From positions 468,042-532,041 of the forward strand of contig NZ_JALHQD010000003.1 in NCBI RefSeq assembly GCF_022842145.1: a stretch of DNA of 64,000 bases, given 5' to 3'. The translations under genes and the position numbers were made by a program. The notes beneath the pieces are model-generated. The model saw nothing but the letters and a program-made list of their open reading frames with translations. It searched no databases and had not been told where the DNA came from. Shown here piece after piece: positions 8,582 through 60,476 of this stretch; positions within the stretch are counted from its first letter, which is position 1; each line of letters opens with the position of its first letter. This stretch comes from Tabrizicola sp. (GTDB lineage: Bacteria; Pseudomonadota; Alphaproteobacteria; Rhodobacterales; Rhodobacteraceae).

Positions 8582-8591
8582 GAAGACCAAG

Positions 8592-10236: not shown

Positions 10237-10635
10237 ATGCTTCGCACCGTTATCATTGCCCTGACCCTTACGGCCACGCCCGCGCTGGCGCTGGTGCCGA
10301 TCAACGAAGAACCGGTGATCCGCGAGAAGCTTCTGCAGGGCTTCATCGGCGACGCCATCGCCGACAACTGCCCGACCATCGACGCCCGCAACCTGCGCGC
10401 TCTGGGTGAGCTGAACGCCTTGCGCGACTATGCGCTGAAGCAGGGCTATGAGGCCAAGGTTGTCCGCGAGTTCGTCACCTCGGACACCGAGAAGGCCAAG
10501 TTCAAGGCCGAGGCGGCCGAATGGCTGAAAGCCAAGGGCGCCGAGCGGGGCAATGCCGAGGCCTATTGCGCCGTCGGTGAAGAGGAAATCGCCAAGGAAA
10601 GCCTGGTTGGCTATCTGTTGAGGTCGAAGAAGTGA
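10237..10635 (+). CDS. Exported protein within the nuo operon (DUF5333-like)
   Basis: A protein of 132 residues with a signal peptide (MLRTVIIALTLTATPALA). The mature part is helical and charged, with two cysteines (DNCPTID and AYCAVGEEE). The start at 10237 is chosen because GGAGG at 10227-10231 lies 5 nt upstream and because it begins the signal peptide; the frame runs further upstream but without a signal. From memory this matches a Rhodobacterales family listed as DUF5333 in the nuo locus. The next gene starts inside its stop. Confidence 0.7.
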   Translation: MLRTVIIALTLTATPALALVPINEEPVIREKLLQGFIGDAIADNCPTIDARNLRALGELNALRDYALKQGYEAKVVREFVTSDTEKAKFKAEAAEWLKAKGAERGNAEAYCAVGEEEIAKESLVGYLLRSKK

Positions 10636-11132
10636 CCGACCCCGTCCTGCACCTGGCCGAGTTGAACGTGGGGCGCCTTCTGGCCCCCACCGACGACCCG
10701 CGCGTGGCCGAGTTCATGGCGGCGCTGGACCGGGTGAACGGAATGGGCAAGCGGATGCCCGGGTTCGTCTGGATGATGGAAGGCTCGGGCGAGCCGGGGA
10801 CTGGCAACACCGAAGCAAAGATCGACGGTGACGCGCAGTTCGTGTCGAACCTGACGGTCTGGGAAAGCGTCGAGACGCTGGAGCATTTCGTCTTCAACAC
10901 CGTCCACCGCACGTTCTATGAGCGGCGGGCCGAGTGGTTCGAGGTGCTGGGCCGGATGCATTTCGTCATGTGGTGGGTGCCCGCGGGGCATCGGCCAACT
11001 TTGGACGAGGCGCTGGCGCGGCTGACGCACCTGGAGACGCATGGCGACAGCGACCATGCCTTCGGGTGGAAATATCTGCAGGAAGCGCAGGCGTGGAAGA
11101 CCCGCGGTTGCGCCCAAGTGGCGGCGGAGTAG
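10632..11132 (+). CDS. DUF3291 (dimeric alpha-beta barrel-like) protein
   Basis: A protein of 166 residues starting at a GTG that overlaps the preceding TGA. It opens with HLAELNVGRLLAP and contains PGFVWMMEG, NLTVWESVETLEHFVFNTVHR and MHFVMWWVPAGHRPTLDEA. That is the pattern of DUF3291 proteins, which resemble small heme or quinone monooxygenases. The His and Trp residues of the MHFVMWW segment are conserved in the family. Presumed cytoplasmic. Its reason for being in the nuo operon is not clear. Confidence 0.8.
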   Translation: MTDPVLHLAELNVGRLLAPTDDPRVAEFMAALDRVNGMGKRMPGFVWMMEGSGEPGTGNTEAKIDGDAQFVSNLTVWESVETLEHFVFNTVHRTFYERRAEWFEVLGRMHFVMWWVPAGHRPTLDEALARLTHLETHGDSDHAFGWKYLQEAQAWKTRGCAQVAAE

Positions 11133-11137
11133 GGGCG

Positions 11138-11317
11138 ATGTGCTACGGCGGTACTGACCCGAAATACATGATGCGCGACATCGAGGCGCGTGTGAAACAC
11201 CTGTCGTTTGAACAGGATACGACGAAACAGGCGGCCCCGGTCGCGCAGGGCGGGCTGCTGGCCCGGCTGCGCGATGCAGTGGTGGGGCTGCTGCGGAAGG
11301 ACCGGGCGCATGTCTAA
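11138..11317 (+). CDS. 59-residue conserved small protein upstream of nuoG
   Basis: Starts [20 protein letters not shown] after a GAGTAGGGGCG ribosome-like stretch and ends in a basic, amphipathic segment [18 protein letters not shown]. The stop overlaps the nuoG start by 8 nt, so the two are translated together. I recall similar short proteins in other Rhodobacterales genomes but no function. The C-terminal helix could lie on a membrane surface or bind NuoG. Confidence 0.65.
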
Positions 11318-13319
11318 CTTGAAGAAAATCAGCATCGACGGGATCGAAGTCGAGGTCGATGGCGCGATGACCATCATCCAGGCGGCGGAAGTCGCCGGGG
11401 TGGAGATCCCGCGCTTTTGCTACCATGAGCGGCTGTCGATCGCCGGCAACTGCCGGATGTGCCTGGTCGAGGTCGTCGGTGGCCCGCCGAAGCCTGCCGC
11501 AAGCTGCGCGATGCAGGTGAAAGACCTTCGCCCCGGCCCGGAAGGGCAGGCGCCCGTGGTCAAGACCAAGTCGCCGATGGTGAAGAAGGCCCGCGAGGGG
11601 GTGATGGAGTTCCTGCTCATCAACCACCCGCTGGACTGCCCGATCTGCGACCAGGGCGGCGAGTGCGACCTGCAGGATCAGGCGATGGCATACGGCGTGG
11701 ACTTCAGCCGCTACCGCGAGCCGAAGCGGGCGACCGAGGATCTGAACCTTGGCCCCTTGGTCAAGACCGCGATGACGCGCTGCATCTCCTGCACCCGCTG
11801 CGTCCGCTTCACCACCGAAGTCGCCGGGATCTCCCAGATGGGCCAGACCGGGCGCGGCGAAGACAGCGAGATCACCAGCTATCTGAACGAGACGCTGGCC
11901 TCGAACCTGCAGGGCAACATCATCGACCTGTGCCCGGTGGGCGCGCTGACCTCGAAACCCTATGCCTTCACCGCGCGGCCCTGGGAGCTGACCAAGACCG
12001 AATCCATCGACGTGATGGACGCGCTGGGGTCGAACATCCGCGTCGACACCAAGGGCCGCGAAGTCATGCGCTTCCTGCCGCGCAACCATGACGGCGTGAA
12101 CGAGGAGTGGATTTCCGACAAGACCCGCTTCGTCTGGGACGGTCTGCGTCGGCAACGGCTGGATACGCCCTATGTGCGCGAGAACGGCCGTCTGCGGAAA
12201 GCCACCTGGGGCGAGGCGCTGGAGAAGGCCGCCGCCGCGATGAAGGGCAGACGCGTGGCCGGGCTGGTGGGCGACCTCGTGCCGGTCGAAGCCGCGTATT
12301 CGCTGAAAACGCTGGTGGAATCGCTCGGCGGCCATGTCGAGTGCCGCACCGACAACGCCAAGCTGCCGATCGGCAACCGCTCGGCTTACGTCGGCACGGC
12401 GACGATTGAGGACATCGACAGCGCCAAGGTGATCCTGTTGATCGGGACCAACCCGCGCGTCGAATCTCCGGTCCTGAACGCCCGCATCCGCAAGGCCTGG
12501 ACCAACGGGGCGATGGTCGGTCTCTTCGGCGAACGGGTCGACCTGACTTATGACTACAAGCACATGGGCTCCGACCGGGCGGCGCTGGTCGATCTGGTGG
12601 GCCGGGTGACGCAAAAAGACAACACGCTGGTCATCATCGGCCAGGGTGCCATCAACGAAGCCGACGGCGAGGCGGTGCTGTCCCAGGCGATGGCCTATGC
12701 GACCGGCGCGGGTGCCAAGTTCATGGTCCTGCACACCGCGGCGGCCCGTGTGGGCGCGATGGACGTCGGTGCTGTGACCGAGGGCGGGCTTGCAGCTGCG
12801 ACTGAGGGTGTCGAGGTGATCTACAACCTTGGCGCCGACGAGGTGGAAATCGCCGCCGGCCCCTTCGTGATCTACCAGGGCAGCCACGGCGACCGGGGTG
12901 CCAACCGTGCCGACATCATCCTGCCGGGCGCTGCCTACACCGAGGAGAACGGGCTGTTCGTCAACACCGAGGGGCGGCCCCAGTTGGCCTTCCGCGCTGG
13001 CTTCGCGCCGGGCGAGGCGAAGGAGAACTGGGCGATCCTGCGGGCGCTGTCGGCCGAAGTGGGCCAGCAACTGCCCTGGGATTCGCTGGCAGGTCTGCGG
13101 GCGGCGCTGGTCAAGGCGCATCCGCATCTGGGCCGCATCGACGAGGTGCCGCAGAACGAATGGCAGCCGCTGCCGGTGAAGGCCCCGGCCAAAGCCACGT
13201 TCCGCAACGCGATCGGGGATTTCTACCTGACGAACCCGATTGCCCGCGCTTCGGCGGTGATGGCCGAACTTTCGGCGATGGCCAAGGACCGCGCGGCGGC
13301 CCCGATTGCGGCGGAGTAA
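11310..13319 (+). CDS. nuoG: NADH-quinone oxidoreductase subunit G
   Basis: The 75-kDa iron-sulfur subunit of complex I, 669 residues, the compact alphaproteobacterial/mitochondrial length. The N-terminal 2Fe-2S ligands are C37, C48, C51 and C66. These are followed by the HxxxCxxC-type N5 region around [18 protein letters not shown], and by [10 protein letters not shown] with a later [13 protein letters not shown] for the 4Fe-4S clusters. The C-terminal half is the molybdopterin-oxidoreductase-like domain without cofactor. The start is ATG 11310, overlapping the small gene upstream. Confidence 0.96.
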
Positions 13320-13320
13320 C

Positions 13321-13728
13321 ATGGCGCAGCGCCTCTCCCTTCTGGCGACCCTTGGCACCGCGACAGCGGCGCTTGGGGCTTGCGCGCCCGCCGGAGAGGT
13401 GCCAGAGGAGCGCGGGCAAGCGCCGGTCTATCAGGGGATCTCGACGATCCTGCTCGACAAGGACCTGGTCAGTCTCACGGTCGCGATGACCGGGGCGAAG
13501 GACGGGTCGGACGTCGAGGCCTATGGCCGCTGCGCAGCCGCGCAATATGCGCTGGATCAAGGGTTTGGCTTCGCACGCCAGGTGCGGACCATCGTGAAGA
13601 AGGACGGGCAGACGTGGTACGGGGATGCGGTCTATCTGCTCTCGGCCACCCGGCCCGAAGGCCTTCGCACCATCGTCACCGCCGAAGCGGTGGCAGAGTG
13701 CGAAGCGCTTGGAATACCAAGCCGGTAA
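13321..13728 (+). CDS. Lipoprotein of unknown function within the nuo operon
   Basis: A protein of 135 residues starting one base after the nuoG stop, with a GGCGGAG ribosome site. The N-terminus LATLGTATAALGAC is a good lipobox (LGAC), predicting a lipid-anchored periplasmic protein. The mature part has cysteines in YGRCAAAQYA and VAECEAL that may pair. I do not recognise a family. Together with the two exported proteins between nuoF and nuoG it makes at least three exported products in this operon, which is odd for complex I genes. Confidence 0.7.
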   Translation: MAQRLSLLATLGTATAALGACAPAGEVPEERGQAPVYQGISTILLDKDLVSLTVAMTGAKDGSDVEAYGRCAAAQYALDQGFGFARQVRTIVKKDGQTWYGDAVYLLSATRPEGLRTIVTAEAVAECEALGIPSR

Positions 13729-13757
13729 GACTGGCGGATTGAGGATGAGGGACTGAC

Positions 13758-14795
13758 ATGGACGGGTTTCTTGCCACGGGGTTCGGAACGGCGGTGCTGA
13801 TCGCGGCGCAGTCGCTGCTGATCGTGGCCTTCGTGATGATCAGCCTTCTGTTCCTCGTCTACGGCGACCGGAAGATCTGGGCGGCGGTGCAGATGCGGCG
13901 CGGCCCGAACGTTGTGGGGCCGTTCGGCCTGCTGCAATCGGTGGCCGATGCGTTGAAGTATGTGGTGAAGGAGATCGTGATCCCGGCGGGCGTCGACCGC
14001 CCGGTCTTCTTCCTGGCACCGATGCTGTCCTTCGTGCTGGCGATCCTCGCCTGGGCGGTGATCCCCTTTGATGACGGCTGGGTCCTGGCCAACATCAACG
14101 TGGCGATCCTGTTCGTCTTCGCCGTCTCCTCGCTGGAGGTTTACGGCGTGATCATGGGCGGCTGGGCCTCGAACTCGAAATACGCGTTCCTTGGGTCGTT
14201 GCGGTCCGCCGCACAGATGATTTCCTACGAAGTGTCGCTGGGCCTGATCATCATCGGCGTCATCATCTCGACCGGCGCGATGAACTTCGGCGCCATCGTG
14301 GCGGCGCAGGACGGGGCTTACGGCTTTTTCAACTGGTACTGGCTGCCGCACTTCCCGATGGTCTTCCTGTTCTTCATCTCGGCGCTGGCTGAAACCAACC
14401 GCCCGCCCTTCGACCTGCCGGAAGCGGAATCCGAACTCGTCGCCGGGTTCATGGTGGAATACTCGTCCACCCCCTACCTTCTGTTCATGGCCGGCGAATA
14501 CATCGCGATCTTCCTGATGTGCGCGCTGATTTCGCTGCTGTTCTTCGGCGGCTGGCTCTCGCCCATCCCCGGCCTGGCCGATGGCTGGTGGTGGATGGTT
14601 GCCAAGATGTGGCTCTTCTTCTTCATGTTCGCGATGGTGAAGGCCATCGTCCCCCGCTACCGCTACGACCAGCTGATGCGGATCGGCTGGAAGGTCTTCC
14701 TGCCGATGTCGCTGGGCTGGGTCGTGCTGGTGGCGTTCCTTGCGAAATTCGAAGTGTTCGGTGGCTTCTGGGCCCGCTGGGCGATTGGAGGCTGA
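13758..14795 (+). CDS. nuoH: NADH-quinone oxidoreductase subunit H
   Basis: The membrane subunit that links the quinone chamber to the proton-pumping arm, 345 residues with about eight transmembrane helices. Family motifs include [23 protein letters not shown], the acidic loop [20 protein letters not shown], and [16 protein letters not shown]. It lies 29 nt after the lipoprotein gene and 2 nt before nuoI. Confidence 0.96.
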
Positions 14796-14797
14796 AG

Positions 14798-15292
14798 ATG
14801 TCCAACATCGACTGGACCCGCGCCACGAAGTATTTCCTGCTGATGGACTTCATCAAGGGCTTCGGCCTGGGGATGAAGTACTTCTTCGCGCCGAAATCGA
14901 CGGTGAACTACCCGCACGAGAAGGGGCCTCTCAGCCCCCGCTTCCGCGGCGAACATGCGCTGCGCCGCTATCCTAACGGCGAGGAACGCTGCATCGCCTG
15001 CAAGCTGTGCGAGGCGGTCTGCCCGGCCCAGGCCATCACCATCGACGCCGAACCGCGGGAGGACGGCTCCCGCCGCACCACGCGGTACGACATCGACATG
15101 ACCAAGTGCATCTACTGCGGCTTCTGCCAGGAAGCCTGCCCGGTCGATGCCATCGTCGAAGGCCCGAACTTCGAATTCTCGACCGAGACGCGGGAAGAGC
15201 TTTTCTACAACAAGGACCGCCTCTTGGAGAACGGTGCCCGTTGGGAAGCCGAGATCGCCCGCAACCTTGAAATCGACGCCCCGTACCGGTGA
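14798..15292 (+). CDS. nuoI: NADH-quinone oxidoreductase subunit I
   Basis: The ferredoxin-like subunit carrying two 4Fe-4S clusters (N6a and N6b), 164 residues. The two cluster motifs are [12 protein letters not shown] and [12 protein letters not shown]. The tail [19 protein letters not shown] is typical of alphaproteobacterial and mitochondrial (TYKY) forms. It starts 2 nt after nuoH with GGAGGCTGAAG as the ribosome site. Confidence 0.96.
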
Positions 15293-49234: not shown

Positions 49235-49269
49235 AAGTGGCTAATCAGCGGACCAAGAAGCCAAAGCGA

Positions 49270-49299
49270 AAGCCCCGCGCCGGGGGCGGCGTGGGGCTT
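49270..49299 (-). terminator. Rho-independent-like terminator behind the second LysM/solute-binding gene
   Basis: On the minus strand, AAGCCCCACGCC, GCCCCC, GGCGCGGGGCTT forms a 12-bp stem with one mismatch and is followed by TCGCTTT. It sits 25 nt after the stop at 49324 and marks the end of the kinase/LysM operon. Confidence 0.7.
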
Positions 49300-49323
49300 C
49301 CTGCAAGCTGACGACAGTGGGGG

Positions 49324-50421
49324 CTACTGCTGCTTCAGCTTGTTGTGTTCATCAAGGCCGGTGGCCACGATGTCGTACCATTCGCCGGATTCCCGCATCT
49401 CGGTGATGCCGCGGTTCAGCATGGCGATGTAGACCCGGCCACGCGGATTGCTCTTCGAGGTCAGGAAGTGGTACGAGATGAACGTCGCCAGCGCCGGGTT
49501 GGTGGAGACCTTGTCGACCACGTCCAGTTCGGTGAAGTTCGCCACCGAGGTTTCGGTTTCGATCGAGTAGACGTCGACCTCGCCCGCCATCAGCTTTTCG
49601 GCGCATTCCAGCGGGCTCTTCGGCTGGACGAATTCCACGACCGGCGGCACCAGACCCTGAACCTCAAGGTCGCCCAGCGGCCAGGCTTCGGGACGGCAGA
49701 TCTTTGCGCCGGAATAGTCTTCGAAGGACCGCGCGTTGGCGTACTTGCTGTCCGGCAGCGTGTTGAAGGTATAGGCCGCCTCGTAGATCGGCAGCGAGAA
49801 GTCGAATTCGGTGCACATGCGGGCCGAGAACTCGCCCAGCATGTCCAGCTTGGAACAATCGGGGGCTTCCCAGGCGATCGAGACGTCGAAGGCGCCCGAG
49901 GGCAGCAGCGTGTCGATATGGGCCATCCAGTCGTCGACGTAGGACACTTCGTATCCGCGGTCATTCCCGCCACGCTGCATCGCGGTGGTGGCCATGCGGG
50001 TGAAGATGCCGCCGCCGGTCAGCGATTCATCGGTGAACGGCATCCAGTTGTTCGAGGTGACGAACTTCAGCGGCGGTTCATAGACGTTGGACTTGGTGCG
50101 GGTGGCTTCCTGCTCTTGCGTCTCGGTCTCGATGATCGTGCTGAGCTCCTGATCAGGGGTCAGGCGGCCGTCTTCGCAAGGCAGGATAAGCTGCAGACCT
50201 GCGGGCAGGCTGGCCGGGTTCGCCGCCAGCGCGTCGCGGTTGGCGTTGAAGATCATCTGGTAGTCGAAAGTGCCGTAAGCGGCCTGGGCGATCGAGCCCA
50301 GTGTGTCGCCGTCCTTGACAGTATAGGTGGTGCAAGCTTCCTGGGCCGAGGCGATCACGGGCAGCGCGATCAGGGTCGCCGCCACGACGGTCAGCCTCTG
50401 TACTTTCTTTGCGGTTCTCAT
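49324..50421 (-). CDS. Exported LysM plus solute-binding (SBP_bac_3-like) protein 2
   Basis: A protein of 365 residues with a signal peptide ending near ALPVIASAQ. A LysM repeat (about 30-80) starts YTVKDGDTLGSIAQAAYG and is bracketed by cysteines (EACTTYTV and ILPCED). A short acidic linker leads to a periplasmic-binding-protein fold (about 115-350), with WMPFTDESLTGGGIFTRM, the GAFDVSIAWEAPDC strand and ISYHFLTSKSNPRGRVYIAMLNRGI. The pairing of a peptidoglycan-binding module with a ligand-binding module suggests an envelope sensor anchored to the cell wall rather than a transport receptor; no ABC permease is nearby. A paralogue is encoded upstream. Confidence 0.85.
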   Translation of the reverse strand: MRTAKKVQRLTVVAATLIALPVIASAQEACTTYTVKDGDTLGSIAQAAYGTFDYQMIFNANRDALAANPASLPAGLQLILPCEDGRLTPDQELSTIIETETQEQEATRTKSNVYEPPLKFVTSNNWMPFTDESLTGGGIFTRMATTAMQRGGNDRGYEVSYVDDWMAHIDTLLPSGAFDVSIAWEAPDCSKLDMLGEFSARMCTEFDFSLPIYEAAYTFNTLPDSKYANARSFEDYSGAKICRPEAWPLGDLEVQGLVPPVVEFVQPKSPLECAEKLMAGEVDVYSIETETSVANFTELDVVDKVSTNPALATFISYHFLTSKSNPRGRVYIAMLNRGITEMRESGEWYDIVATGLDEHNKLKQQ

Positions 50422-50688
50422 GGGTGAGTATCCTTCTGAAGGCTGTATAGGCTGCAAGAAACCAGCAGATACCGAAACAATACGAGCTTTGGCGCACCAT
50501 ATGGTTGTAGTGATGGCACGAATGTGGCGAAGCGGTGGTCAATCCGGTTCCCGTGCCGCTGGGCTGTGGCACCCCGGAACAGCGCGGCCGATCCCTCGGT
50601 CAGACGTCCTAAACAGCAGGACATCAGCGCCGAAAGCACGTGGGAAACCGGGGCGGACTGACGCAGGTTTGTTGCCAGCATGGAAACG

Positions 50689-51846
50689 CTACTCCTGCGG
50701 CTCATCGTCCTCGGCCAGGGCCGTCGACACGATCTCGTACCATTCGCCGGACTGGTACATCTCGATCAGCCCGGCATCGAGCTGACCGATCATGTCCACG
50801 GCGCGGGGGTTCGACTTGTGGGCGATGACATGCAGGCTGAGCAGGGTTGCCAGATGTGGGTTCTGCTCGACGCGGGCGGTCAGACCCAGTTTGGCGACAG
50901 CGGCATCGCCGGCTTCGGCGTCGATGGCGACCAGGTCGACTTCGCCTGCGGCCAATGCCTTGAAGCAGTCCGTCGCCATCGCGGCACGAACCAGGGTCAC
51001 GGTCGAGGCGGTCAGCCCCGCCGCCTCCAGGACGCCGGTGGTATAGCCCTCGGGACGGCAGATGCGCTTGCCGCCGAACTCGGCATAATCTGTGACGACG
51101 CCCAGCCCGCTGTCGCGGAGCGCAAAGAAGCCGTCGACGATTTCGTAGAACGGCCCCGAGAAGACAAAATCGTTGCAGCGCGTCTGGTCGCCCGGAGACA
51201 GGGTTTCCGGCGCTTCGCAGTCGGGACGGATCCAGGGAAAGCTCAGGTCATAGGCGCCCGACGGCAGCAGCGCGTCGATGTGCGCCTGCCAGTCGTTGAT
51301 GAAGGTCAGCGTGTAGGGAATCGCCGGATCGGCTCGGAAGACCGCCATCTCGGCAAGCTGCGTCATCATCCCGCCGCCGGGGAGCATCTCGTCGGCGAAG
51401 GGGGCGTAACCGTTGCCGGTGACGAAGGAGATCGGCTTGGCCGGGGCCGCGACAGGATCCGGTGTGGCGGCGACTGGGGTCACCACTTCCGGCTCGGGCG
51501 TTGCGGCGGCCGCGGTCTCGGATGCAACGGGCTCGGAGGGCTCGGCCTCGGGGGCTTCGGCCGCTGCTGGCGCTGGGTCAAGCGGCGCGGTCGGATCGTT
51601 CGGGTCGCAGGGGATGACCAGAGCGGTGCCGATCTCGATCAGGTCCGCTTTCGCACCGATGGTCGCGGCATTCGCCTCGTAGATCACGCGGTAAAGGTCG
51701 GCGTCGCCATAGGCAGACCGGGCGATGAAGCGCAGGTTGTCCCCGACGGCAACCGTGTAGGTCGAGCAGGCGTCCTGCGCCATTGCCGCGGCGCTGGTCA
51801 GAAGAACCGCGGTGCAGCCGAAGGTGAAGGTCCGCGCAAATGCCAT
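50689..51846 (-). CDS. Exported LysM plus solute-binding (SBP_bac_3-like) protein 1
   Basis: A protein of 385 residues with the same layout as its neighbour: signal peptide (LLTSAAAMAQ), then LysM (YTVAVGDNLRFIARSAYG) with flanking cysteines (DACSTYTV, VIPCDP). A longer Ala/Pro/Glu linker (about 95-155) precedes the binding domain, which has YAPFADEMLPGGGMMTQLAEMA, GAYDLSFPWIRPDC and LSLHVIAHKSNPRAVDMIGQLDAGLIEM. The start is ATG 51846 with AAAGGAG upstream. The two binding domains share order and cysteine pattern but differ widely, so they probably bind different ligands. A 267-bp gap separates the two genes. Confidence 0.85.
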   Translation of the reverse strand: MAFARTFTFGCTAVLLTSAAAMAQDACSTYTVAVGDNLRFIARSAYGDADLYRVIYEANAATIGAKADLIEIGTALVIPCDPNDPTAPLDPAPAAAEAPEAEPSEPVASETAAAATPEPEVVTPVAATPDPVAAPAKPISFVTGNGYAPFADEMLPGGGMMTQLAEMAVFRADPAIPYTLTFINDWQAHIDALLPSGAYDLSFPWIRPDCEAPETLSPGDQTRCNDFVFSGPFYEIVDGFFALRDSGLGVVTDYAEFGGKRICRPEGYTTGVLEAAGLTASTVTLVRAAMATDCFKALAAGEVDLVAIDAEAGDAAVAKLGLTARVEQNPHLATLLSLHVIAHKSNPRAVDMIGQLDAGLIEMYQSGEWYEIVSTALAEDDEPQE

Positions 51847-51939
51847 CTCTCTGCTCCTTTGTCCGGTAGGTGGGGGCTGGCGGTGCCGCCCTCCCCGCAA
51901 GCCGGGGGTCGATTGCTGTTCGGTGTCCGGGCGGAACGC

Positions 51940-52125
51940 TCAGCCCGATGCGGTCTGGTGCGGGTCAGGTGGCTGCGCCGGGCCGGACCGTTCTGCCGCG
52001 CGGGCCAGGACGGCTATCAGCGGGTCAAGAGGCGTTGCCGTCGCCGCCCGGACCGACGCATCGGAGATGACCAAAGCCGGATCGGTTCCGGGACGCTTTT
52101 TCCGGACGGCTTGCGACGCCATCAT
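51940..52125 (-). CDS. 61-residue ORF coupled to the kinase gene
   Basis: The ATG at 52125 overlaps the kinase TGA as ATGA, and a second ATG follows directly. The product starts MMASQAVRKKRPGTDPALVISDASVRAATATPLDPLIAVLARAAER. The basic start followed by a likely helix and a Pro-rich tail has a protein-like composition. No family is recognised. Coupling to the kinase gives moderate support. It may be a kinase substrate or an unrelated small protein. Confidence 0.5.
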   Translation of the reverse strand: MMASQAVRKKRPGTDPALVISDASVRAATATPLDPLIAVLARAAERSGPAQPPDPHQTASG

Positions 52126-54326
52126 TGGCCGTCCTTCGCAAGCTGAAGCGTCGCCGCGGCGACCTTGGTGTCGCGGATGATCGAGAATTCGGTTGTGGCC
52201 ACGCCCTGTTCGACCAGTGCGGCAAGGATCTTCTCCAGCGAAGTGGCCGCATCCAGCGGCGTCGCTGTGGTCTTGTCGCGGAACAGCGTGTCCCCCGGCT
52301 GAAGCGTGGTCGTCTCGGGTCGCGCCACGGCGGTCACCTCGGTCTTCCAGGCCCCGTCGACCACCAGCACCCGGACCGTCAGGCCGTTCTGCAGGGTGAT
52401 CAGCCGGACTGCATCGACCGTCAGAAGGCCGGTCTTCACTTGCCGCGCGGTGTCGCTGAACTCGACGACGACGCGGGCCCGACCGTCGGGATCGACCGCC
52501 ATCGCGTTCATCACCGCGACCGTCAGCGAGCCGGCGGATTCGACCGTCATGCCGTTGACCGAATGGATCGCCACGCCGGGTGCCAGCCAGTCGCCTGCGG
52601 CCTGGACATCCACTCCGGCCTGGAACCGCGTCACCACGGCAACGCGGCGGCCATCGATCATGCGGTCGTCGTAGCTGAAGGGCATCGCGACGTCCCAGAC
52701 CGCGAAGGCGACCTGGTTCGCGGCAGGTTTGGGTCCTGCGGCAGCTGCTTCGGCAACAGGATCGGCGACCGCCGTTTCGGTGACGGCAGTTTCCACCTCG
52801 GGTGCTGCGACGGTTTCGGGCGCCGCGCTGGCCTCGACCACAGGTTCGACGGCGACAGCGGCTTCTGTCTCAGATTCGACGACGGCGGGCACAGCGGCCG
52901 CGACGTCGACGGTTTCGGCGGGAACTTCTGCCTGCGCGTCATCAGCGACTGGGGCGGCTGCGGCGACCTCGACGGTTTCGGCGACTGGTTCCGGTGTGGC
53001 TGTGGTTGGCAGGGCAGCCGTCTCGGGCTCTGCCGGTTCCGGCTGGGATGCCGCGGCGACCGAAGCCGCCGAAACCGGTTCCGGGGCAATCAGTCCGGCG
53101 TTGACCGTAACGGGTTCTGTCGCCCGCGCATCGGTTCCGGCAGTCGCGCCGGACGCCGTGTCGGCGGCCTTGGGTTGACCCAGCATCAGGTAGCCGCCAG
53201 CCACCACGATCAGGGCCACCGCAACACCGGCCACCAACTGCACCGGGCTGCGACCGCGTGATGCGGGGGAGGCAGCCTCCGGTTCGGGCTGCCGCGATGC
53301 CGCCTTCGCCAATGGAGCCGCGGCGGGTGCATCCGCTTCGCTGCGGAACTCGTTCACCAGACGGTGCACCGCGTCGTCGACCGACCCGGCGGCTCCGGGG
53401 GCCTTGTGATACATCGCGAGCCAGTCCGCAGCGGTCTGCAACCGCTGTTTCGGCAAGGCGCTCATCGCGCAGTCGATCGCTTCCAGATAGCCCGGCGGAT
53501 ATCCCGCAAAGCGGCCGGTCAGCGGCAGATAGGGATCGGGCCGCTCTTCGGCGAGGGCGGCAAGCCTGGCCTGTCCGTTGACCGGCGCCTCGCCCGAGAT
53601 CAGGTGGTAAAGGGTCGCCCCCAGCGCATAAAGGTCGCTCCACGGACCCTGTTCCGACCCGGCGATGTAGAATTCCTGCGGCGAATAGCCGTCCTTCACC
53701 ACGCGCAAGGCGGACATCGCGCGCGTCGTCTTCGAGGCATGTTCCCGCGCCGCGCCGAAGTCGATCAGGATCGGCTCACCGGCCTTGTTGACCAGGATGT
53801 TGTCCGGCGAGATGTCGCGGTGCAGCATATCGTGGTCATGGATGAAACCGACCGCCGTCAAAAGCTTGTCGGTGATCCGCACGATGTGATCCGGCTTCAG
53901 CATTTCGCCTTCGCCGTCGATGATCTGCTGAAGATCAAGGCCGTCGATGAAGTCGATCGCCATATAGGCGGTGCCATTGTCTTCGAAGACCTGGTGGACT
54001 GCCACGATGTTCGGATGCACGATCTTTGCCAGGTTCCGCGCCTCGCGCACGAAAAGCTGGACGATCGACCGCAGTTCGGCGGTATGCGCCCGCGATCGGG
54101 CGGCGACGACCACCTTCGACCGGCGGCAGACGGACGAGGGGAAACATTCCTTGATCACCACGTCGCGGTCGAGGCTGTCCTTGGCCAGATAGGTGATGCC
54201 GAAGCCGCCGCTGTTGATGTAGCGGGTGATGGTGTACTGGCCCTTGAGCAGCTTCGCGCCCGGCTGCAGTTCGTCGATGAGGTCGTCGGCCTCTTCCACG
54301 GGTTCGGCCACCTTCTGCTGCGCCAT
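52122..54326 (-). CDS. Transmembrane Ser/Thr protein kinase with periplasmic Ala/Glu-rich stalk and PDZ-like C-terminal region
   Basis: A eukaryotic-like kinase of 734 residues. All catalytic elements are present: Gly-loop NSGGFGITYLAKD (38-50), Lys59 in VVIKE, HRDISPDN (169-176) and DFG at 189-191. A single transmembrane helix (about 363-383) follows. The outside part begins with a 170-residue Ala/Val/Glu/Pro stalk and ends in a folded region (about 575-734). That region has WLAPGVAIHSVNGMTVESAGSLTVAVMNAM, which looks PDZ-like. The start is ATG 54326 with GGAAGG upstream. The kinase leads an operon with a small ORF and two exported LysM/binding proteins, so envelope sensing is likely. No phosphatase is seen in the window. 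Confidence 0.88.
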   Translation of the reverse strand: MAQQKVAEPVEEADDLIDELQPGAKLLKGQYTITRYINSGGFGITYLAKDSLDRDVVIKECFPSSVCRRSKVVVAARSRAHTAELRSIVQLFVREARNLAKIVHPNIVAVHQVFEDNGTAYMAIDFIDGLDLQQIIDGEGEMLKPDHIVRITDKLLTAVGFIHDHDMLHRDISPDNILVNKAGEPILIDFGAAREHASKTTRAMSALRVVKDGYSPQEFYIAGSEQGPWSDLYALGATLYHLISGEAPVNGQARLAALAEERPDPYLPLTGRFAGYPPGYLEAIDCAMSALPKQRLQTAADWLAMYHKAPGAAGSVDDAVHRLVNEFRSEADAPAAAPLAKAASRQPEPEAASPASRGRSPVQLVAGVAVALIVVAGGYLMLGQPKAADTASGATAGTDARATEPVTVNAGLIAPEPVSAASVAAASQPEPAEPETAALPTTATPEPVAETVEVAAAAPVADDAQAEVPAETVDVAAAVPAVVESETEAAVAVEPVVEASAAPETVAAPEVETAVTETAVADPVAEAAAAGPKPAANQVAFAVWDVAMPFSYDDRMIDGRRVAVVTRFQAGVDVQAAGDWLAPGVAIHSVNGMTVESAGSLTVAVMNAMAVDPDGRARVVVEFSDTARQVKTGLLTVDAVRLITLQNGLTVRVLVVDGAWKTEVTAVARPETTTLQPGDTLFRDKTTATPLDAATSLEKILAALVEQGVATTEFSIIRDTKVAAATLQLAKDGQ

Positions 54327-54643: not shown

Positions 54644-55921
54644 TCAGCCGGGGCCGGGGAGTCGTCGGCGCACGCTTTGCGGGCGTCCGGCCAAGGAAAG
54701 TCGGGCGTCATTGCGGCGGCGCTCCGCGACAAGCTTGCCTTTGGACACAACCGCAAGACGATCCGGCCGCAGGCGCAAAGCCTCGGTCGGCGAACCCGCG
54801 TCCAGGACCACAAGGCTGGCAAGGCACCCTGGGCGCAAGCCGTAGTCCGGCAGGTTCATGATCCTGGCATTGGTTTCAGTGACCATCGTGAAACAGCGAG
54901 CCATTTCCGCGGGATGGGTCATCTGCGCGACGTGCAGCCCCATGAAGGCCACGTCCAGCATGTCCGCGGTGCCCAGGCTGTACCAGGGGTCCAGCACGCA
55001 GTCCTGCCCCCAGCCGACCGAGATGCCCATCGCCTGCATTTCCTTGACCCGCGTCAGGCCGCGACGCTTGGGGTAAGTGTCGTGGCGGCCCTGAAGCGTG
55101 ATGTTGATCAAGGGGTTGGGAATTGCGGTCATGCCCGCTTCCGCGATCAGCGGCAGCAGTTTCGAGACATAGTAGTTGTCCATCGAATGCATGCTGGTGA
55201 GGTGGCTGCCCGCAGCCCTGCCACCCAGACCATGACGCGTCACCTCACGCGCCATTGTTTCCACATGGCGGCTCATCGGGTCGTCGGTCTCGTCGCAATG
55301 GACGTCCCACATCAGACCGCGTTCAGCCGCCATGCGGCCAAGGTCGCGCAGCGACTCGGCGCCTTCCTCCATCGTGCGTTCGAAATGCGGGATGCCGCCC
55401 ACGACGTCGACGCCCATGTCCAGTGCGCGCAGGACGTTCTGGCGCCCGGTCTTCGTGCGGTAAAGTCCGTCCTGCGGGAAGGCCACCAGTTGCAGGTCTA
55501 GGTAGGGGGCCACGCGCCGCTTGACCTCCAGCATCGCCTCGACCCCGCGGAGGTGGTCGGGGGTGGTGTCCACGTGCGTCCGGATCGCCAGAAGGCCCAT
55601 GCTGACCGCCCAGTCGCAATAGGTGACAGCCCGGTCGACGAGTTCCTCCACCGTGGCGATGTCGCGCAGCTCGCCCCAGAGGCTGATTCCTTCCAGAAGC
55701 GTGCCGGACGCATTAACGCGCGGCAAACCGAAGCTCAGCGTCGCATCCATATGAAAATGCGGGTCGACGAAGGGCGGCGACACCAGATCCCCGGTCGCGT
55801 CGATCACCTTGGCCGCTTCGGCGTCCAGCCTGCCCACGGCGGCGATCCGGTCGCCGGTGATGCCGATGTCGGCCACCGCCCCGTCCGGGAGGGTGCCGCC
55901 CTTGACCAGAAGATCGAACAT
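54644..55921 (-). CDS. Amidohydrolase-family deaminase, cytosine-deaminase-like
   Basis: A metal-dependent hydrolase of 425 residues. Motifs of the CodA group are present: VDPHFHMDATLSFG (HxHxD), TTPDHLRGVEAM, WDVHCDETDDP (HxDE), SHLTSMHSM and GWGQDCVLDPWYSLGTADML. These fit cytosine deaminase or a related isoguanine/creatinine-type deaminase. The last 20 residues are basic and probably disordered. It ends the operon of a BMP-type importer (1 nt behind the permease gene), so its substrate is probably a base released from an imported nucleoside. Confidence 0.88.
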   Translation of the reverse strand: MFDLLVKGGTLPDGAVADIGITGDRIAAVGRLDAEAAKVIDATGDLVSPPFVDPHFHMDATLSFGLPRVNASGTLLEGISLWGELRDIATVEELVDRAVTYCDWAVSMGLLAIRTHVDTTPDHLRGVEAMLEVKRRVAPYLDLQLVAFPQDGLYRTKTGRQNVLRALDMGVDVVGGIPHFERTMEEGAESLRDLGRMAAERGLMWDVHCDETDDPMSRHVETMAREVTRHGLGGRAAGSHLTSMHSMDNYYVSKLLPLIAEAGMTAIPNPLINITLQGRHDTYPKRRGLTRVKEMQAMGISVGWGQDCVLDPWYSLGTADMLDVAFMGLHVAQMTHPAEMARCFTMVTETNARIMNLPDYGLRPGCLASLVVLDAGSPTEALRLRPDRLAVVSKGKLVAERRRNDARLSLAGRPQSVRRRLPGPG

Positions 55922-55922
55922 G

Positions 55923-56870
55923 TCAGCGTTCCCCCTTGTTGTAAGGCACCATCAGCGAGGCAGGCACCTCGGCCCGGCGCGACATCAGGATCAGCGCCAG
56001 GATGGACAGGATGAAGGGCAGGGCGAGGAACAACTGGTAGGGCAGGACAGCCCCCAGTTCCGTCTGCTGCAACCGGATCTGCAGCGCGTCGAAGGCTGCA
56101 AACAGGATCGCCCCCAGCACCGCCTTGCCCGGTTTCCAGGCTCCGAAGACGACGAGGGCAATGCAGATCCAGCCGCGGCCGTTGACCATCTCGAAAAAGA
56201 AGCTGGAAAACGCCGACAGCGTCAGGAACGCGCCCCCGACGGCCATCAGCCCCGAGCCCATGATCACCGCACCCATCCGCAGGCCGGTCACCGAAAGCCC
56301 CTGCGCCTCCACCGCCGCCGGGTTTTCCCCCACCGCCCGCACCGCAAGGCCAAGCGGGGTGCGGTAAAGCGTGAAGGCGACGATCCCGGCCACGGCAAAG
56401 GCCGCCCATGTCAGCGCCGTCTGCGAGAAGATCGCCTCGCCCAGCCAGGGAAGGTCGCTGAGCAGCGGAATGTCCAGCGGCTGAAATGGCTCGATCTTCG
56501 GCGGGCTGGTCACTTCGGGGAGCATCAGCCGATAGGCGAAGGAGGCCGAGGCGGTGGCAAACAGCGTGACGCCCAGTCCGACGACGTGCTGAGACAGCCC
56601 GAACGGCACCGTCAGGGTGGAATGGAGCAGCCCGAACAGCATTCCCGCGCCCATCGCCACCGCGACCCCACCCCACAAGGGCATCCCCTGGTAGACCGCC
56701 ATCCAGCCGGTGAAGGCCCCGATGACCATGATCCCCTCGATCCCCAGGTTGAGCACCCCGGCCCGTTCGCAGATAAGCTCCCCCATCGTCGCCAGGATCA
56801 GGGGCGAGGCGATGCGGATCACCGCCGCCCAGAAGCTGGCCGATATGAGGATGTCGATGATCTCGTTCAT
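55923..56870 (-). CDS. BMP-type (nucleoside-like) ABC transporter permease 2
   Basis: An inner-membrane permease of 315 residues with about nine helices. The start region FWAAVIRIASPLILATMGELICERAGVLNLGIEGIMVIGAF is the hallmark of the YufQ/NupC-like permeases of the branched-chain amino acid/sugar superfamily. The EAA-like loop reads AVGENPAAVEAQGLSV. It overlaps the first permease gene by 4 nt. The ATG at 56870 is chosen because it begins this conserved block; the frame is open further upstream. Confidence 0.92.
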   Translation of the reverse strand: MNEIIDILISASFWAAVIRIASPLILATMGELICERAGVLNLGIEGIMVIGAFTGWMAVYQGMPLWGGVAVAMGAGMLFGLLHSTLTVPFGLSQHVVGLGVTLFATASASFAYRLMLPEVTSPPKIEPFQPLDIPLLSDLPWLGEAIFSQTALTWAAFAVAGIVAFTLYRTPLGLAVRAVGENPAAVEAQGLSVTGLRMGAVIMGSGLMAVGGAFLTLSAFSSFFFEMVNGRGWICIALVVFGAWKPGKAVLGAILFAAFDALQIRLQQTELGAVLPYQLFLALPFILSILALILMSRRAEVPASLMVPYNKGER

Positions 56871-57910
56871 CCCCGCACCACCCGGACCTTTGACAGAAGG
56901 ATCGCCAGCACCATGAAGAGAAGCGCCGTCGCCATCAGCATGTCGGCGATATAGGTCGGCACCCCCGCCGCCCGGCTCATCGCGTCGGACCCCACGAAGA
57001 TCCCCGCCACGAAGATCGCGGTGACGACCACTCCCAAAGGATGGAGAAGCGCCAGCATCGCGACGATGATCCCGGTATAGCCGAACCCCGGCGACAGGTC
57101 GGATGACAGATGACCCTTCAGCCCGGCGACTTCGGACCACCCCGCCAGCGCCGCAAGGCCCCCCGACAGAAGCGCCGTCTTCACCAGCACCGCATTAACC
57201 GGCATCCCCGCGAACCGCGCCGCCTCGGGGTTCTGCCCCACGGCCCGGATTTCGAAACCCAGGGTCGTGCGGGTCTGGATCACCCAGACGATGATTGCTG
57301 CAAGGATGGCCAGGGCAAAGCCCCAGTGCAGCCGCAACCCCTCGACAAGGCGGGGCAGGCGGGCCTCGGGGATCAGCGGCGTCGACTTCGGCCAGCCCAT
57401 CCCCATCGGGTCCTTCATCGGACCTTCCAGCAGATAGCTGACGAACAGGATCATGATGAAGTTGAGCAGGAGGGTGGTGACGACCTCGTCCACCCCCAGC
57501 CGCGTCTTCAGAAGGACGGGGCCCAGCAGCAGCGCCGCCCCCGCCAGCATTGCGGCCAGCGCGGAGAGCGGCAGGACCCAGGGGCTTCCCAGTGCTCCGG
57601 TCCCCAGCACGACCGCCATGATCGCCCCGGCATAAAGCTGCGCCTCGGCCCCGATGTTCCAAAGCTTTGCGCGGAAGGCCACAGCCACGGCCAGCCCCGT
57701 GAAGATCAGCGGCGTGGCCCGGTTCAGCGTCTCCAGCACCGCCAGTTTCGACCCCAGCGCGCCCGTCGCGATCTGGCCCAGCACCGCAAGGGGGTTTGCC
57801 CCCGCGATCAGCGCCAGTAGCATGGCGACCCCCAGCGTGGCCACCAACGCCAGCGCCGGCAGGCCCAACTGCCGCGCGGCCGAGGGATTGGCGATCGGTT
57901 CAAGCCGCAT
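56867..57910 (-). CDS. BMP-type (nucleoside-like) ABC transporter permease 1
   Basis: A protein of 347 residues, polytopic, of the YufP-like permease type. It has NRATPLIFTGLAVAVAFRAKLWNIGAEAQLYAGA, LGVDEVVTTLLLNFIMILFVSYLLEGPMKDP, and the loop AVGQNPEAARFAGMPVNAV. It pairs with the next permease to form the channel. It overlaps the ATPase gene by 11 nt. Confidence 0.92.
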   Translation of the reverse strand: MRLEPIANPSAARQLGLPALALVATLGVAMLLALIAGANPLAVLGQIATGALGSKLAVLETLNRATPLIFTGLAVAVAFRAKLWNIGAEAQLYAGAIMAVVLGTGALGSPWVLPLSALAAMLAGAALLLGPVLLKTRLGVDEVVTTLLLNFIMILFVSYLLEGPMKDPMGMGWPKSTPLIPEARLPRLVEGLRLHWGFALAILAAIIVWVIQTRTTLGFEIRAVGQNPEAARFAGMPVNAVLVKTALLSGGLAALAGWSEVAGLKGHLSSDLSPGFGYTGIIVAMLALLHPLGVVVTAIFVAGIFVGSDAMSRAAGVPTYIADMLMATALLFMVLAILLSKVRVVRG

Positions 57911-59435
57911 CTGCTTCCCCGAACCTTTGCCCGGCCATCCACAACCCCAATTCCGCCGCCGTCATCGTCCCGCGCGCGAACGCGGGCGATAGGCGACCTT
58001 GAGACATCACATGAATGACATCCGACAACCCCATGATTTCGTCCAGATCTTCCGAGATCAGAAGCACCGTCGCCCCCCGGTCCCGCGCCGCGATAAGCTG
58101 GCTTTGCACATAGGCGATCGCGCCCACGTCCAGGCCCCGGACCGGCTGGTTCGCCAGGATAACCCGAGGGCCGGGGGCCATCGCCCGCCCCAGGATCAGC
58201 TTTTGCATGTTTCCGCCGGACAGAAGCCGTATCCGTGTCTCCGGCCCCGGACACCGCACGTCGTAACCCTTGATGATGCCTTCGGCAAACTCCCGCGCCG
58301 CGCGCCAGTTCATCCAGCCCCGGTGGGAAAAGCGCGTCCGGTAGCCCTCCAGCACCGCGTTCTCGGTCAGGTCGAAATCGGCGATGCTGCCCTGGTGGTG
58401 CCGGTCTTCGGGGATCCGAGCGACCCCCCGCGCCAAGGCCTCGCCCGGCGACCAGCCGGCCACCGGGTGATCGCCCAGCACGATCTGCCCCGACGACGGC
58501 ACCGACAACCCGCCCAGGATTTCTGCCAGCGCGGCCTGCCCGTTGCCCGACACGCCCGCAAGGCCCGTGATCTGCCCGGCCCGCAGGTCCAGCGTGACCG
58601 CCTTCAGCCCCGGGGCCGCACCGCGGTCCGGCGTCGACACCCGGTCCAGCTTCATCAGCACCGCGCCGGGGGCCCGCGCTTCGGCCCGGGGCAGCGACAG
58701 CTCTCCGCCGACCATCAGCGCCGCCAGCGCGCCCCGATCAGTTGCATGGGTGTCGACCTCGCCCACGACGCGGCCATGCCGCAGCACGACGCAACGGTCG
58801 GCAATCGCCATCACCTCATGCAGCTTGTGGCTGATGAAGATTACCGAAAGCCCTAGTGCCGTGGCTTTGCGCAGGGTGGCAAACAGCGCCTCGGCCTCTT
58901 GCGGGGTCAGGACCGCTGTTGGTTCGTCCAGGATCAGGATGCGGGCGTTGCGGTAAAGCGCCTTTAGGATCTCGACCCGCTGGCGTTCCCCGACCGACAG
59001 GCGACCGACCTTCGCATCGGGATGCACCGCCAGGCCGAAGTCGCGTGAAAGCTGCTCCACCTTCGCCCGTGCGCCCGAGACGCTGGGAGACCACAGCCCC
59101 TCGGTCCCCAGACGTATGTTGTCCAGCACCGTGAGATTGCCCGCCAGGGTGAAATGCTGGTGCACCATGCCCACCCCGGCCGACAGCGCCGCACGCGGGT
59201 TGCCGGGGGGCAAGGGCTGGCCGAACACCTCGACCACACCCTCGTCGGCCACATAATGGCCGAACAGGATGTTCATCAGCGTGGTCTTGCCAGCCCCGTT
59301 TTCCCCGAGCAGAGCCACGACTTCGCCGCGCCGCAATGTCAAGGACACCGCATTGTTGGCCTTCAGCGCGCCGAACCGCTTGGAAATGCGGTCGAGGCGG
59401 AGGACAACCTCCGCCTCCTCCTTCCCAAGGGTCAC
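57900..59435 (-). CDS. BMP-type (nucleoside-like) ABC transporter ATP-binding protein, duplicated ATPase
   Basis: A protein of 511 residues with two ABC domains. The first has GENGAGKTTLMNILFG, LSVGERQRVEILKALYRNARILILDEPTAVL and a switch His in FISHKLHEV. The second is weaker: a degenerate Walker A (AGVSGNGQAALAEILGG), the signature LSGGNMQKLILGRAM, and NQPVRGLDVGAI in place of the usual DEP. That asymmetry is normal for this transporter class (YufO, RbsA type). The ATG overlaps the end of the binding protein gene. Confidence 0.93.
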   Translation of the reverse strand: MTLGKEEAEVVLRLDRISKRFGALKANNAVSLTLRRGEVVALLGENGAGKTTLMNILFGHYVADEGVVEVFGQPLPPGNPRAALSAGVGMVHQHFTLAGNLTVLDNIRLGTEGLWSPSVSGARAKVEQLSRDFGLAVHPDAKVGRLSVGERQRVEILKALYRNARILILDEPTAVLTPQEAEALFATLRKATALGLSVIFISHKLHEVMAIADRCVVLRHGRVVGEVDTHATDRGALAALMVGGELSLPRAEARAPGAVLMKLDRVSTPDRGAAPGLKAVTLDLRAGQITGLAGVSGNGQAALAEILGGLSVPSSGQIVLGDHPVAGWSPGEALARGVARIPEDRHHQGSIADFDLTENAVLEGYRTRFSHRGWMNWRAAREFAEGIIKGYDVRCPGPETRIRLLSGGNMQKLILGRAMAPGPRVILANQPVRGLDVGAIAYVQSQLIAARDRGATVLLISEDLDEIMGLSDVIHVMSQGRLSPAFARGTMTAAELGLWMAGQRFGEADAA

Positions 59436-60445
59436 GACGACGCAGGTTCGCTGTCGTCGATGGCCACGGTAAAGCTGCCGTCCTTGATCGCGGCTTCCTT
59501 CTCGGCGACCAGCGCCATGACCTCGGCCGGGACCTTGCCCTCGAACGTGCCCAAAGGCGCCAGCGAGCAGCCCCCGACGTTCATGTAGGAATAGACCCCG
59601 TAGTTGTCGGCCTTGAAAGTCCCGCCCTGAATGGCCGCGACCGCTGCGTTCAGCGTCGGCTCAAAGTGCCACAGCGCGGACGTGACCACCGTGTCGGGAT
59701 AATCGGCTTGCGTGTCGATCACGTTGCCGATCGCGAGCCCTCCGCGTTCCTTGGCCGCATCGCTGACGCCGAAGCGTTCGGCGTAAAGGAGGTCCGCCCC
59801 ACCGTCGATCATCGCGAATGCCGTCTCCTTGGCCTTCGGCGGATCGAACCACGACCCGATGAAGCTGACCTGGAACTTCGCATCCGGTTTCACCTCGCGC
59901 ACGCCGGCCATGAAGGCATGCATCAGACGGTTTACCTCGGGGATCGGGAAGCCGCCGACCATGCCGATGTTGCCTGCCGTCATGCCGCCCGCGACGATGC
60001 CGGACAGGTAGGCCGCGTCCTGGATGTAGTTGTCGAAGACCGCAAGGTTCGGGTTCGCCGCCGCGTCGGGCATGAAGGAGGACCCCATCAGGAAGGCCAC
60101 GTCCGGGTATTCCGCTGCAACTTCGCGCGCCTCGGCCTCGGCTCCGAAGATCTCGCCCACGATCAGCTTGACGCCCGCCTCGCAGTATTCTCGCATCACG
60201 CGGGGGTAGTCGGTGTTGGCGACGTTCTCGGTGTAGGTGTAGTCCACCGTGCCCGCAGCCTTCAGCGCCTCGGCGGCGATGTGGATGCGGCTGACCCACT
60301 GCTGTTCGACCGGCACCGTATAGATGCCCGCCATCTTGATCGGCTCTTGCGCCCATGCCGCCAAAGGCAGGTTCGCCGCCGCCGTCGCGGCCACACCGCC
60401 CAGAAGCAGCCCGCGCCGCGATACCGTGAAGGTTCCCGTGGTCAT
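59432..60445 (-). CDS. BMP-family ABC transporter substrate-binding protein (Tat-exported)
   Basis: A protein of 337 residues with a twin-arginine signal (TVSRRGLLLGG, cut after LAAWAQ), so it should travel by the TatABC system encoded at 34808-36559. The mature part has the Bmp/PnrA fold with ENVANTDYPRVMREYCEAG, VAFLMGSSFMP, GMVGGFPIPEVNRLMHAFMAG and FIGSWFDPPKAKETAFAMIDGGAD. Characterised members bind purine or other nucleosides; the deaminase in the same operon fits this. ATG 60445 is preferred; ATG 60463 would add MGMGKT. A strong palindrome lies 32 nt upstream. Confidence 0.92.
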   Translation of the reverse strand: MTTGTFTVSRRGLLLGGVAATAAANLPLAAWAQEPIKMAGIYTVPVEQQWVSRIHIAAEALKAAGTVDYTYTENVANTDYPRVMREYCEAGVKLIVGEIFGAEAEAREVAAEYPDVAFLMGSSFMPDAAANPNLAVFDNYIQDAAYLSGIVAGGMTAGNIGMVGGFPIPEVNRLMHAFMAGVREVKPDAKFQVSFIGSWFDPPKAKETAFAMIDGGADLLYAERFGVSDAAKERGGLAIGNVIDTQADYPDTVVTSALWHFEPTLNAAVAAIQGGTFKADNYGVYSYMNVGGCSLAPLGTFEGKVPAEVMALVAEKEAAIKDGSFTVAIDDSEPASS

Positions 60446-60476
60446 TGTCTTTCCCATCCCCATGTTGCTGTCCGAT

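Follow-up and report, generated by a model that had tools for sequence, protein, structure and literature searches.

Introduction

Stimulation of receptors by solute-binding proteins (SBPs) is widespread, and Ser/Thr kinases are among the targets (PMC9602780). In Actinobacteria, the amino-acid-binding protein GlnH, whose gene lies with that of a Ser/Thr kinase, has been proposed to report its ligand to this kinase, PknG, by way of GlnX, and further linked or fused SBP/kinase cases are named in the same article (PMC6069109). Ser/Thr kinases coupled to a solute-binding fold in a single chain include MSMEG_1200 (PMC6069109) and a Streptomyces coelicolor kinase described in a 2005 survey of kinases with binding-protein domains, in whose main text PDZ and LysM are absent (PMC1262709). 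Here we analyze a gene cluster of Tabrizicola sp. (Rhodobacterales, Rhodobacteraceae) lying in a stretch of 64,000 nucleotides (contig NZ_JALHQD010000003.1, positions 468,042 to 532,041; hereafter the window), in which the gene of a transmembrane Hanks-type Ser/Thr kinase with a tandem PDZ-like ectodomain is followed by a 61-codon open reading frame (ORF) and by two genes, SBP1 and SBP2, whose putatively exported products join a predicted LysM domain to a binding fold. We read this, with a probability of roughly 0.55, as a transmembrane signalling cluster of Rhodobacterales in which wall-held binding proteins would signal to the kinase.

The cluster differs from GlnH-GlnX-PknG, where the proposed route of the signal runs from a putative lipoprotein, GlnH, via GlnX, a membrane protein in its own right, to a kinase with a TPR domain (PMC6069109), whereas the Tabrizicola kinase has a membrane helix of its own and a tandem PDZ-like ectodomain and is accompanied by paired LysM-bearing SBPs; no TPR family (Pfam scan) and no separate GlnX-like gene was found in the cluster. 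Threonine phosphorylation in type VI secretion systems (T6SS), with PpkA, Fha and PppA, offers a second comparison, periplasmic RtkS activating PpkA in Serratia and TagR standing upstream of PpkA in Pseudomonas (PMC10482370). A membrane kinase, an FHA protein, a PP2C phosphatase and a periplasmic protein that acts, or here would act, on or upstream of the kinase are common to that pathway and to relatives of the window's cluster, whereas the periplasmic partners here are LysM/SBP proteins and the cluster in the window lacks FHA and PP2C genes. Unlike in the single-chain fusions, the binding fold is carried by separate secreted LysM proteins and not by the kinase. The PASTA kinases PknB/Stk1 are also transmembrane Hanks kinases with a possible cell-wall connection, whereas the ectodomain here is PDZ-like and wall contact would come through partner proteins. 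SBP-controlled Ser/Thr kinases are already known; what is new here are the separate paired LysM candidate sensors, the putative tandem-PDZ receiver and the exchangeable anchor modules. A search of the open PMC literature by title and start of abstract, with subscription papers outside it, returned no description of this cluster, and in two articles containing LysM and Rhodobacterales terms (PMC7901474, PMC5839243) only other LysM proteins were found.

Organization and predicted domains of the cluster

The cluster occupies positions 49324-54326 of the window, all on the minus strand, in the order kinase, 61-codon ORF, SBP1, SBP2 and terminator-like hairpin:

52122-54326, minus strand: gene of the transmembrane Hanks-type Ser/Thr kinase (734 residues), its start set by agreement with a relative in L037 (begins MAQQ)
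53403-54254, minus strand: kinase catalytic domain, residues ~25-308 (Pfam PF00069 at 39-253; NCBIfam and PADLOC kinase models)
53178-53237, minus strand: single predicted membrane helix, residues ~364-383 (hydropathy window)
52125-52715, minus strand: tandem PDZ-like ectodomain, the 197-residue C-terminal region of the kinase (AlphaFold and Foldseek)
51940-52125, minus strand: 61-codon ORF of a putative microprotein, overlapping the kinase stop (ATGA)
50689-51846, minus strand: SBP1, with predicted signal peptide, cysteine-bracketed LysM, linker and SBP_bac_3-like binding fold
49324-50421, minus strand: SBP2, paralogue of SBP1, with Met where most linked relatives carry Arg
49262-49287, minus strand: terminator-like stem-loop 3' of SBP2 (terminator scan and sequence)

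These coordinates agree with the original prediction, made from the sequence alone, which had named the four minus-strand ORFs, the terminator behind SBP2 and the coupling of the 61-codon ORF to the kinase, seen in the ATGA overlap. It had further proposed a single operon; the gap of 267 bp between SBP1 and SBP2 leaves co-transcription of SBP2 with the upstream genes uncertain. RNA control in this gap was considered and rejected, folding being at chance level (z -0.40), and a promoter scan of the region found no sigma-70-like promoter. The terminator scan put the stem-loop at 49287-49272. Terminator-like sites in the region numbered 7 against a shuffle mean of 3.7 (standard deviation 2.2), the place of the hairpin being more telling than the count.

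Membership of the kinase in the Hanks type follows from PF00069 (102 bits against a cut-off of 31.7, E 4.7e-29). The G-loop, HRD and DFG patterns are present in 51 of 51 kinase ORFs of more than 550 residues among the relatives and the strict pattern around the VAIK lysine in 35 of the 51. The earlier observation of a one-helix kinase, the helix predicted by hydropathy, holds. Beyond the helix lies an Ala-, Pro-, Glu- and Val-rich linker of ~150 residues. No Pfam family was found in the ectodomain, for which AlphaFold (alignment with eight relatives) gave a model with a predicted local distance difference test score (pLDDT) of 91.4 and a predicted template-modelling score of 0.80. The best Foldseek match was 3mh6 (DegP/HtrA, E 7.9e-6), the RseP-homologue PDZ pair 3wkl matched at E 8e-5, and all 16 PDB matches at E ≤ 0.001 were HtrA/DegP/DegQ chains, RseP chains or this RseP-homologue PDZ pair (E 7.9e-6 to 7.3e-4). 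Template-modelling scores by query were just 0.29-0.55; each domain is therefore PDZ-like, and their mutual arrangement follows no single template. As modelled, the outer region thus comprises two PDZ-like domains; the original prediction had recognized the PDZ-like character and counted one. Two other assignments of the kinase were rejected. The NCBIfam model of PASTA kinases (PknB/Stk1) scored 141.2 bits against a cut-off of 450, with no Pfam PASTA domain and a tandem PDZ-like ectodomain in its place. As to anti-phage defence, PADLOC, applied to the cluster proteins, matched the kinase domain with PD-T4-6 and mad6, which match kinases generally, and matched SBP1 and SBP2 with no family.

SBP1 and SBP2 share 37% identity, and this, together with profiles and fold, supports the earlier description of two paralogous LysM/binding-fold proteins; their signal peptides were judged by reading the sequence, with no prediction tool. 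Six cysteines, two bracketing the LysM domain and four in the binding domain, are invariant in 30 aligned relatives, and at least 147 of 149 aligned rows retain any given one of them. The LysM scores of the two copies lie below the Pfam cut-off (12.8 and 18.8 bits against 20.9) and neither protein has a Pfam SBP_bac_3 match. The assignment of a LysM domain and an amino-acid-type binding fold is nevertheless supported by profiles, fold and a divergent L057 relative scoring above the Pfam cut-offs of both families (LysM 24.0 bits; SBP_bac_3 narrowly, 27.2 against 26.4). The family profile matched the LysM of the potassium-binding protein Kbp, the closest LysM of known structure (E 7.4e-12), and AncQR, an ancestral Arg/Gln binder and the best relative of the binding domain (E 8.3e-9). 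The SBP2 model (pLDDT 89.4) matched amino-acid binding proteins (best E 8e-13) as well as two sensor domains with a binding fold, one from BvgS and one from a histidine kinase. In the AncQR alignment, the carboxylate-binding Arg position holds Arg in 46/72 SBP2 and 44/49 SBP1 proteins linked to a kinase, and the amino-group position an acidic residue in 70/72 and 49/49, respectively, the SBP1/SBP2 labels being best matches, so that a few spacer-bearing SBP1 were counted as SBP2. Arg and the acidic residue are what we take, from the family, to hold the amino acid backbone. In some genera the LysM and the binding domain of SBP1 are separated by an Ala-rich spacer, which is probably helical and has well over 150 residues in L043 (8430-10010) and ~80 in L044 (8567-9766).

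Co-inheritance of the kinase and the LysM/SBP pair

The best 80 of 156 SBP2 relatives in species-representative genomes represented 78 distinct named loci, and linkage was scored when a kinase or ectodomain lay no more than 3.5 kb upstream of the first SBP gene on the same strand. By this measure 57/78 loci were linked, including 56/61 of those with two or more SBP genes and, where at least 2.5 kb of upstream sequence was available, 50/51 tandem loci, the exception being L185. Solo SBP genes were linked in 1/17 loci (L214). Thirteen of the 16 kinase-less solo loci (all but L189, L192 and L219) share an accession prefix with a tandem locus, and most of these solo genes are therefore additional to a pair in the same genome.

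The wider family was surveyed by searching 248 genomes of the same GTDB family with SBP2. Matches were found in 75 genomes, many via LysM alone, and 40 stretches were fetched around the longer ones, leaving out genomes G053 and G206, which also had long matches. Kinase and ectodomain accompanied the LysM/SBP gene in seven stretches, and the ectodomain only in one (L046, at a contig start). The kinase-less stretches include divergent tandem pairs (~24-33% identity), some in metabolic neighbourhoods, and the short contig L040, in whose genome a different contig ends with a tandem-PDZ kinase (L116). The LysM/SBP family is thus wider than the kinase link, and the data support co-inheritance for the orthologous subfamily, not for LysM/SBP proteins at large. 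Divergent tandem pairs with no kinase were seen in L057, L061, L066, L072, L074 and L075, and some divergent pairs have SnoaL-like, LacI-type, Meth_synt_2 or alpha/beta-hydrolase genes as recurrent neighbours. At class level, 14/385 genomes matched the LysM/SBP profile at E ≤ 1e-15; three of these, all members of the same family, have full-length fusions, and in the remaining 11 only the binding domain is matched.

From the kinase side, the ectodomain profile matched 38/394 genomes of the family at E ≤ 0.001 and, at class level, 2/372 genomes at E ≤ 1e-6, both of the same family. The tandem-PDZ set consisted of the 37 fetched stretches with an ectodomain match of at least 57 bits, weaker rows being excluded, and the window, 38 in all. 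LysM/SBP genes were present in 15/38, window included. In 14/38 a gene for a fusion of PBP_like_2 and OmpA (PBP-OmpA) was found without LysM/SBP, 0.07-8.6 kb from the ectodomain and on the opposite strand in L127; L046 and L118 had both. A binding-fold protein with a wall-type anchor was accordingly present in the same stretch in 29/38. PBP-OmpA calls were made by tblastn with the L118 protein, Pfam confirming PBP_like_2 and OmpA for L118 and L120, and such genes are not rare, with 49 matches in 16 genomes, mostly genomes picked for a linkage already seen. PBP_like_2-OmpA fusions near a tandem-PDZ kinase were noted in L118, L120, L121, L126-L129, L131, L132 and L134-L139, a DctP-type protein accompanying them in L046, L118, L120 and L126; exported PilJ-like proteins occur in L129, L135 and L139, PilJ being confirmed by Pfam in L139 only.

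The three partner labels were clustered on a quick 34-kinase tree, needing 9 changes against a shuffled mean of 15.4 (as low in 0/200 shuffles), and the LysM label alone needed 5 against 10.7 (as low in 2/500). One clade of 15 kinases (95 in the Shimodaira-Hasegawa-like approximate likelihood-ratio test) contained 12/13 LysM-linked rows; two of its three other members, L111 and L116, are truncated at contig ends, and the third, L112, is a genuine exception.

Partner genes and the microprotein

The 57 named kinase loci frequently contain further same-strand partners, namely FHA proteins (25), PP2C phosphatases (26) and GTPases (18), the last being by Pfam of the Dynamin_N type or smaller (MMR_HSR1). 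Ruegeria, Aliiroseovarius, Frigidibacter and some Defluviimonas have the order kinase-FHA-PP2C-SBP-SBP. In Leisingera and other Defluviimonas, FHA-PP2C-GTPase comes after kinase-SBP-SBP, and the Tabrizicola/Rhodobacter branch has kinase-ORF-SBP-SBP. On a Ruegeria plasmid (L229), RefSeq annotates two dynamins, a protein kinase, FHA, PP2C and two substrate-binding proteins in succession, which matches the first of these orders. Kinase-FHA-PP2C joined to Dynamin_N and smaller GTPases was also observed in L130, L131, L134, L137-L139 and L196-L203, in addition to L229, and no description of kinase-FHA-PP2C-dynamin-type clusters surfaced in the open PMC literature searched. No T6SS genes were found among the 14 annotated features of L229 or 10 neighbours in the window, to which the scan was confined.

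The 61-codon ORF had no Pfam or NCBIfam match and no visible signal peptide. Its C-terminal motif, LDxLIxALxxAVxR, recurs in 23/57 named kinase loci (within L151-L190) in small ORFs of 50-79 codons at the kinase stop, SBP1 always being the next recognized gene and FHA never occurring in the same stretch; these 23 are among the 31 named kinase loci without an FHA match. A profile of 24 such ORFs matched only ORFs at kinase/SBP loci among the loci searched. The ratio of nonsynonymous to synonymous variation (pN/pS) over the motif was 0.52 in frame, compared with 1.46 and 1.25 when read out of frame, values biased by the choice of loci by motif pattern, and small ORFs are also present when the loci are viewed without this selection. 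The ORF is a conserved predicted microprotein. Its origin as an N-terminal remnant of a lost FHA protein was rejected, the profile matching no FHA protein in the loci searched. Three findings go beyond the original prediction: the pairing of the PDZ-like domains, the presence of FHA, PP2C and GTPase genes as partners in relatives, and the conservation of the microprotein.

Genomic context

One neighbouring group on the same strand lies outside the proposed system:

54644-60463, minus strand: Bmp-type ABC transporter genes and an amidohydrolase gene

The original prediction had stated that no transporter genes are present. This holds for the cluster itself, in which no permease or ATPase genes of an ABC importer were found, whereas the Bmp-type ABC genes, followed by the amidohydrolase gene, end 317 bp upstream of it. 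The ABC transporter encodes its own Bmp-type binding protein. These genes and the iol-like genes downstream were rejected as partners, since on the maps of the broad-family stretches, which were used for this judgement in place of the 78 named loci, they recur only in L037, of the same genus.

The host assembly measures 4.33 Mb in 18 contigs, and the nearest named relatives by SBP2 identity are Rhodobacteraceae, Tabrizicola and Rhodobacter records. No third SBP2 match was found in this genome at E ≤ 0.001. It contains four further kinase matches, of which one, on contig C1, adjoins an FHA-like gene (phmmer) and a PP2C gene and has a weak likeness to the second PDZ-like domain (E 1e-7). A search of the genome with PF00498 gave only one FHA match, which is on contig C5 and is not the C1 gene; at ~48-73 kb of C5, kinase-like, FHA and PP2C matches lie within 25 kb, possibly another signalling or secretion cluster.

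Proposed mechanism and alternative explanations

In the mechanism that we favour, SBP1 and SBP2 would be exported and kept near peptidoglycan by their disulfide-bracketed LysM domains, where they would bind and enclose a small ligand, in the case of SBP1 most likely one resembling an amino acid. The tandem PDZ-like ectodomain, on its long flexible linker, would read the ligand state or the wall attachment of the SBPs, and this reading would alter the activity of the kinase within the cell. The phosphothreonine mark would then, in many relatives, be read by an FHA protein and erased by a PP2C phosphatase, and dynamin-like GTPases would be the output. A functional link between kinase and SBPs is argued for because 50/51 tandem loci are linked, because 12/13 LysM-linked kinases fall in one clade and because a second fusion of wall anchor and binding fold accompanies kinases of the same type. 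That the SBPs would report to the kinase is suggested by the near one-to-one inheritance, by the lack of importer genes in the cluster and by this alternative fusion; by analogy with the systems described above, such reporting of ligand or wall state is plausible and has precedents.

Several observations weigh against signalling from the SBPs to the kinase. Gene neighbourhood carries no information on direction. That the LysM domains bind peptidoglycan is a presumption drawn from their family, their closest counterpart with a structure being the LysM of Kbp, and the SBP2 of the window, like 23/72 linked SBP2, has Met in place of the AncQR Arg. As PDZ ligands the SBP C-termini were rejected: they form no canonical PDZ tail, and their ending in N or Q (52/71 linked tandem SBP2, 31/49 SBP1) extends to unlinked SBP2 (7/16 solo, 6/8 tandem). 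The LysM label still needs its 5 changes on the kinase tree, and in L189 (Gemmobacter aquaticus, 5282-15179) SBP2 is followed by FHA, PP2C and GTPases with no kinase upstream, the ORF there being presumably catalase-peroxidase-like, as recognized by eye. Neither type of partner was found in 9/38 tandem-PDZ stretches, L111, L116 and L123 among them being cut by contig ends. The original prediction had made the functional link depend on the genes usually occurring together; read literally, the counts go the other way, 32/40 broad-family LysM/SBP stretches, some of them short contigs, having no kinase or ectodomain and 23/38 tandem-PDZ kinase stretches no LysM/SBP gene, whereas in the orthologous subfamily the pairing stands.

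DegP and RseP are envelope quality-control proteins, and the PDZ pairs of DegP and RseP homologues are the best structural matches of the ectodomain, a likeness that suggests direct sensing. The tandem PDZ could thus itself be the sensor, as in DegS or RseP, and respond to envelope damage or to exposed C-termini of proteins, the LysM/SBP proteins being co-expressed effectors or wall-bound scavengers; the 23 stretches just mentioned would fit this as well. We consider it unlikely, as the presence of a wall-anchored binding-fold protein in 29/38 stretches, in the form of two unrelated fusions, is hard to explain for mere effectors. Distinctly less probable is a reversed direction, in which the kinase would govern export, wall attachment or expression of SBPs that supply an importer whose genes lie elsewhere. 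An orphan SBP can work with a distant transporter, 16/17 solo SBP2 loci have no kinase and SBP2 is preceded by its own 267-bp leader region, all of which would suit such an arrangement; a LysM domain and six conserved cysteines would, however, be more expected of a protein fixed to the wall than of a diffusible transport SBP, and the adjacent transporter owns its Bmp binding protein, with genes recurring only in L037 among the maps. We give still less credence to a conserved neighbourhood of co-regulated and functionally separate genes. The loss, movement or exchange of its members (FHA, PP2C, GTPases and microprotein) could be so understood, whereas the near one-to-one association of an orthologous SBP pair with the kinase and the grouping of LysM-linked kinases on the tree speak for more than proximity.

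Signalling from wall-held binding proteins to the kinase could also be one instance of a general Rhodobacterales design, of which no description surfaced in the open PMC literature searched and in which a tandem-PDZ Hanks kinase is fed by separate wall-anchored binding-fold proteins, with LysM/SBP_bac_3 and PBP_like_2/OmpA fusions swappable, and relayed by FHA and PP2C to dynamin-like GTPases remodelling the membrane or envelope. We advance this tentatively, as possible and rather doubtful as a whole. The activation of bacterial Ser/Thr kinases has been called an outstanding question (PMC6069109), and the cluster provides a compact Gram-negative case in which candidate inputs, a candidate receiver in the confidently modelled PDZ pair and, in relatives, the genes of reader, eraser and output are co-located and co-inherited. 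If true, the general design would be a Gram-negative counterpart of wall sensing by PASTA kinases, with the sensor placed on a detachable protein.

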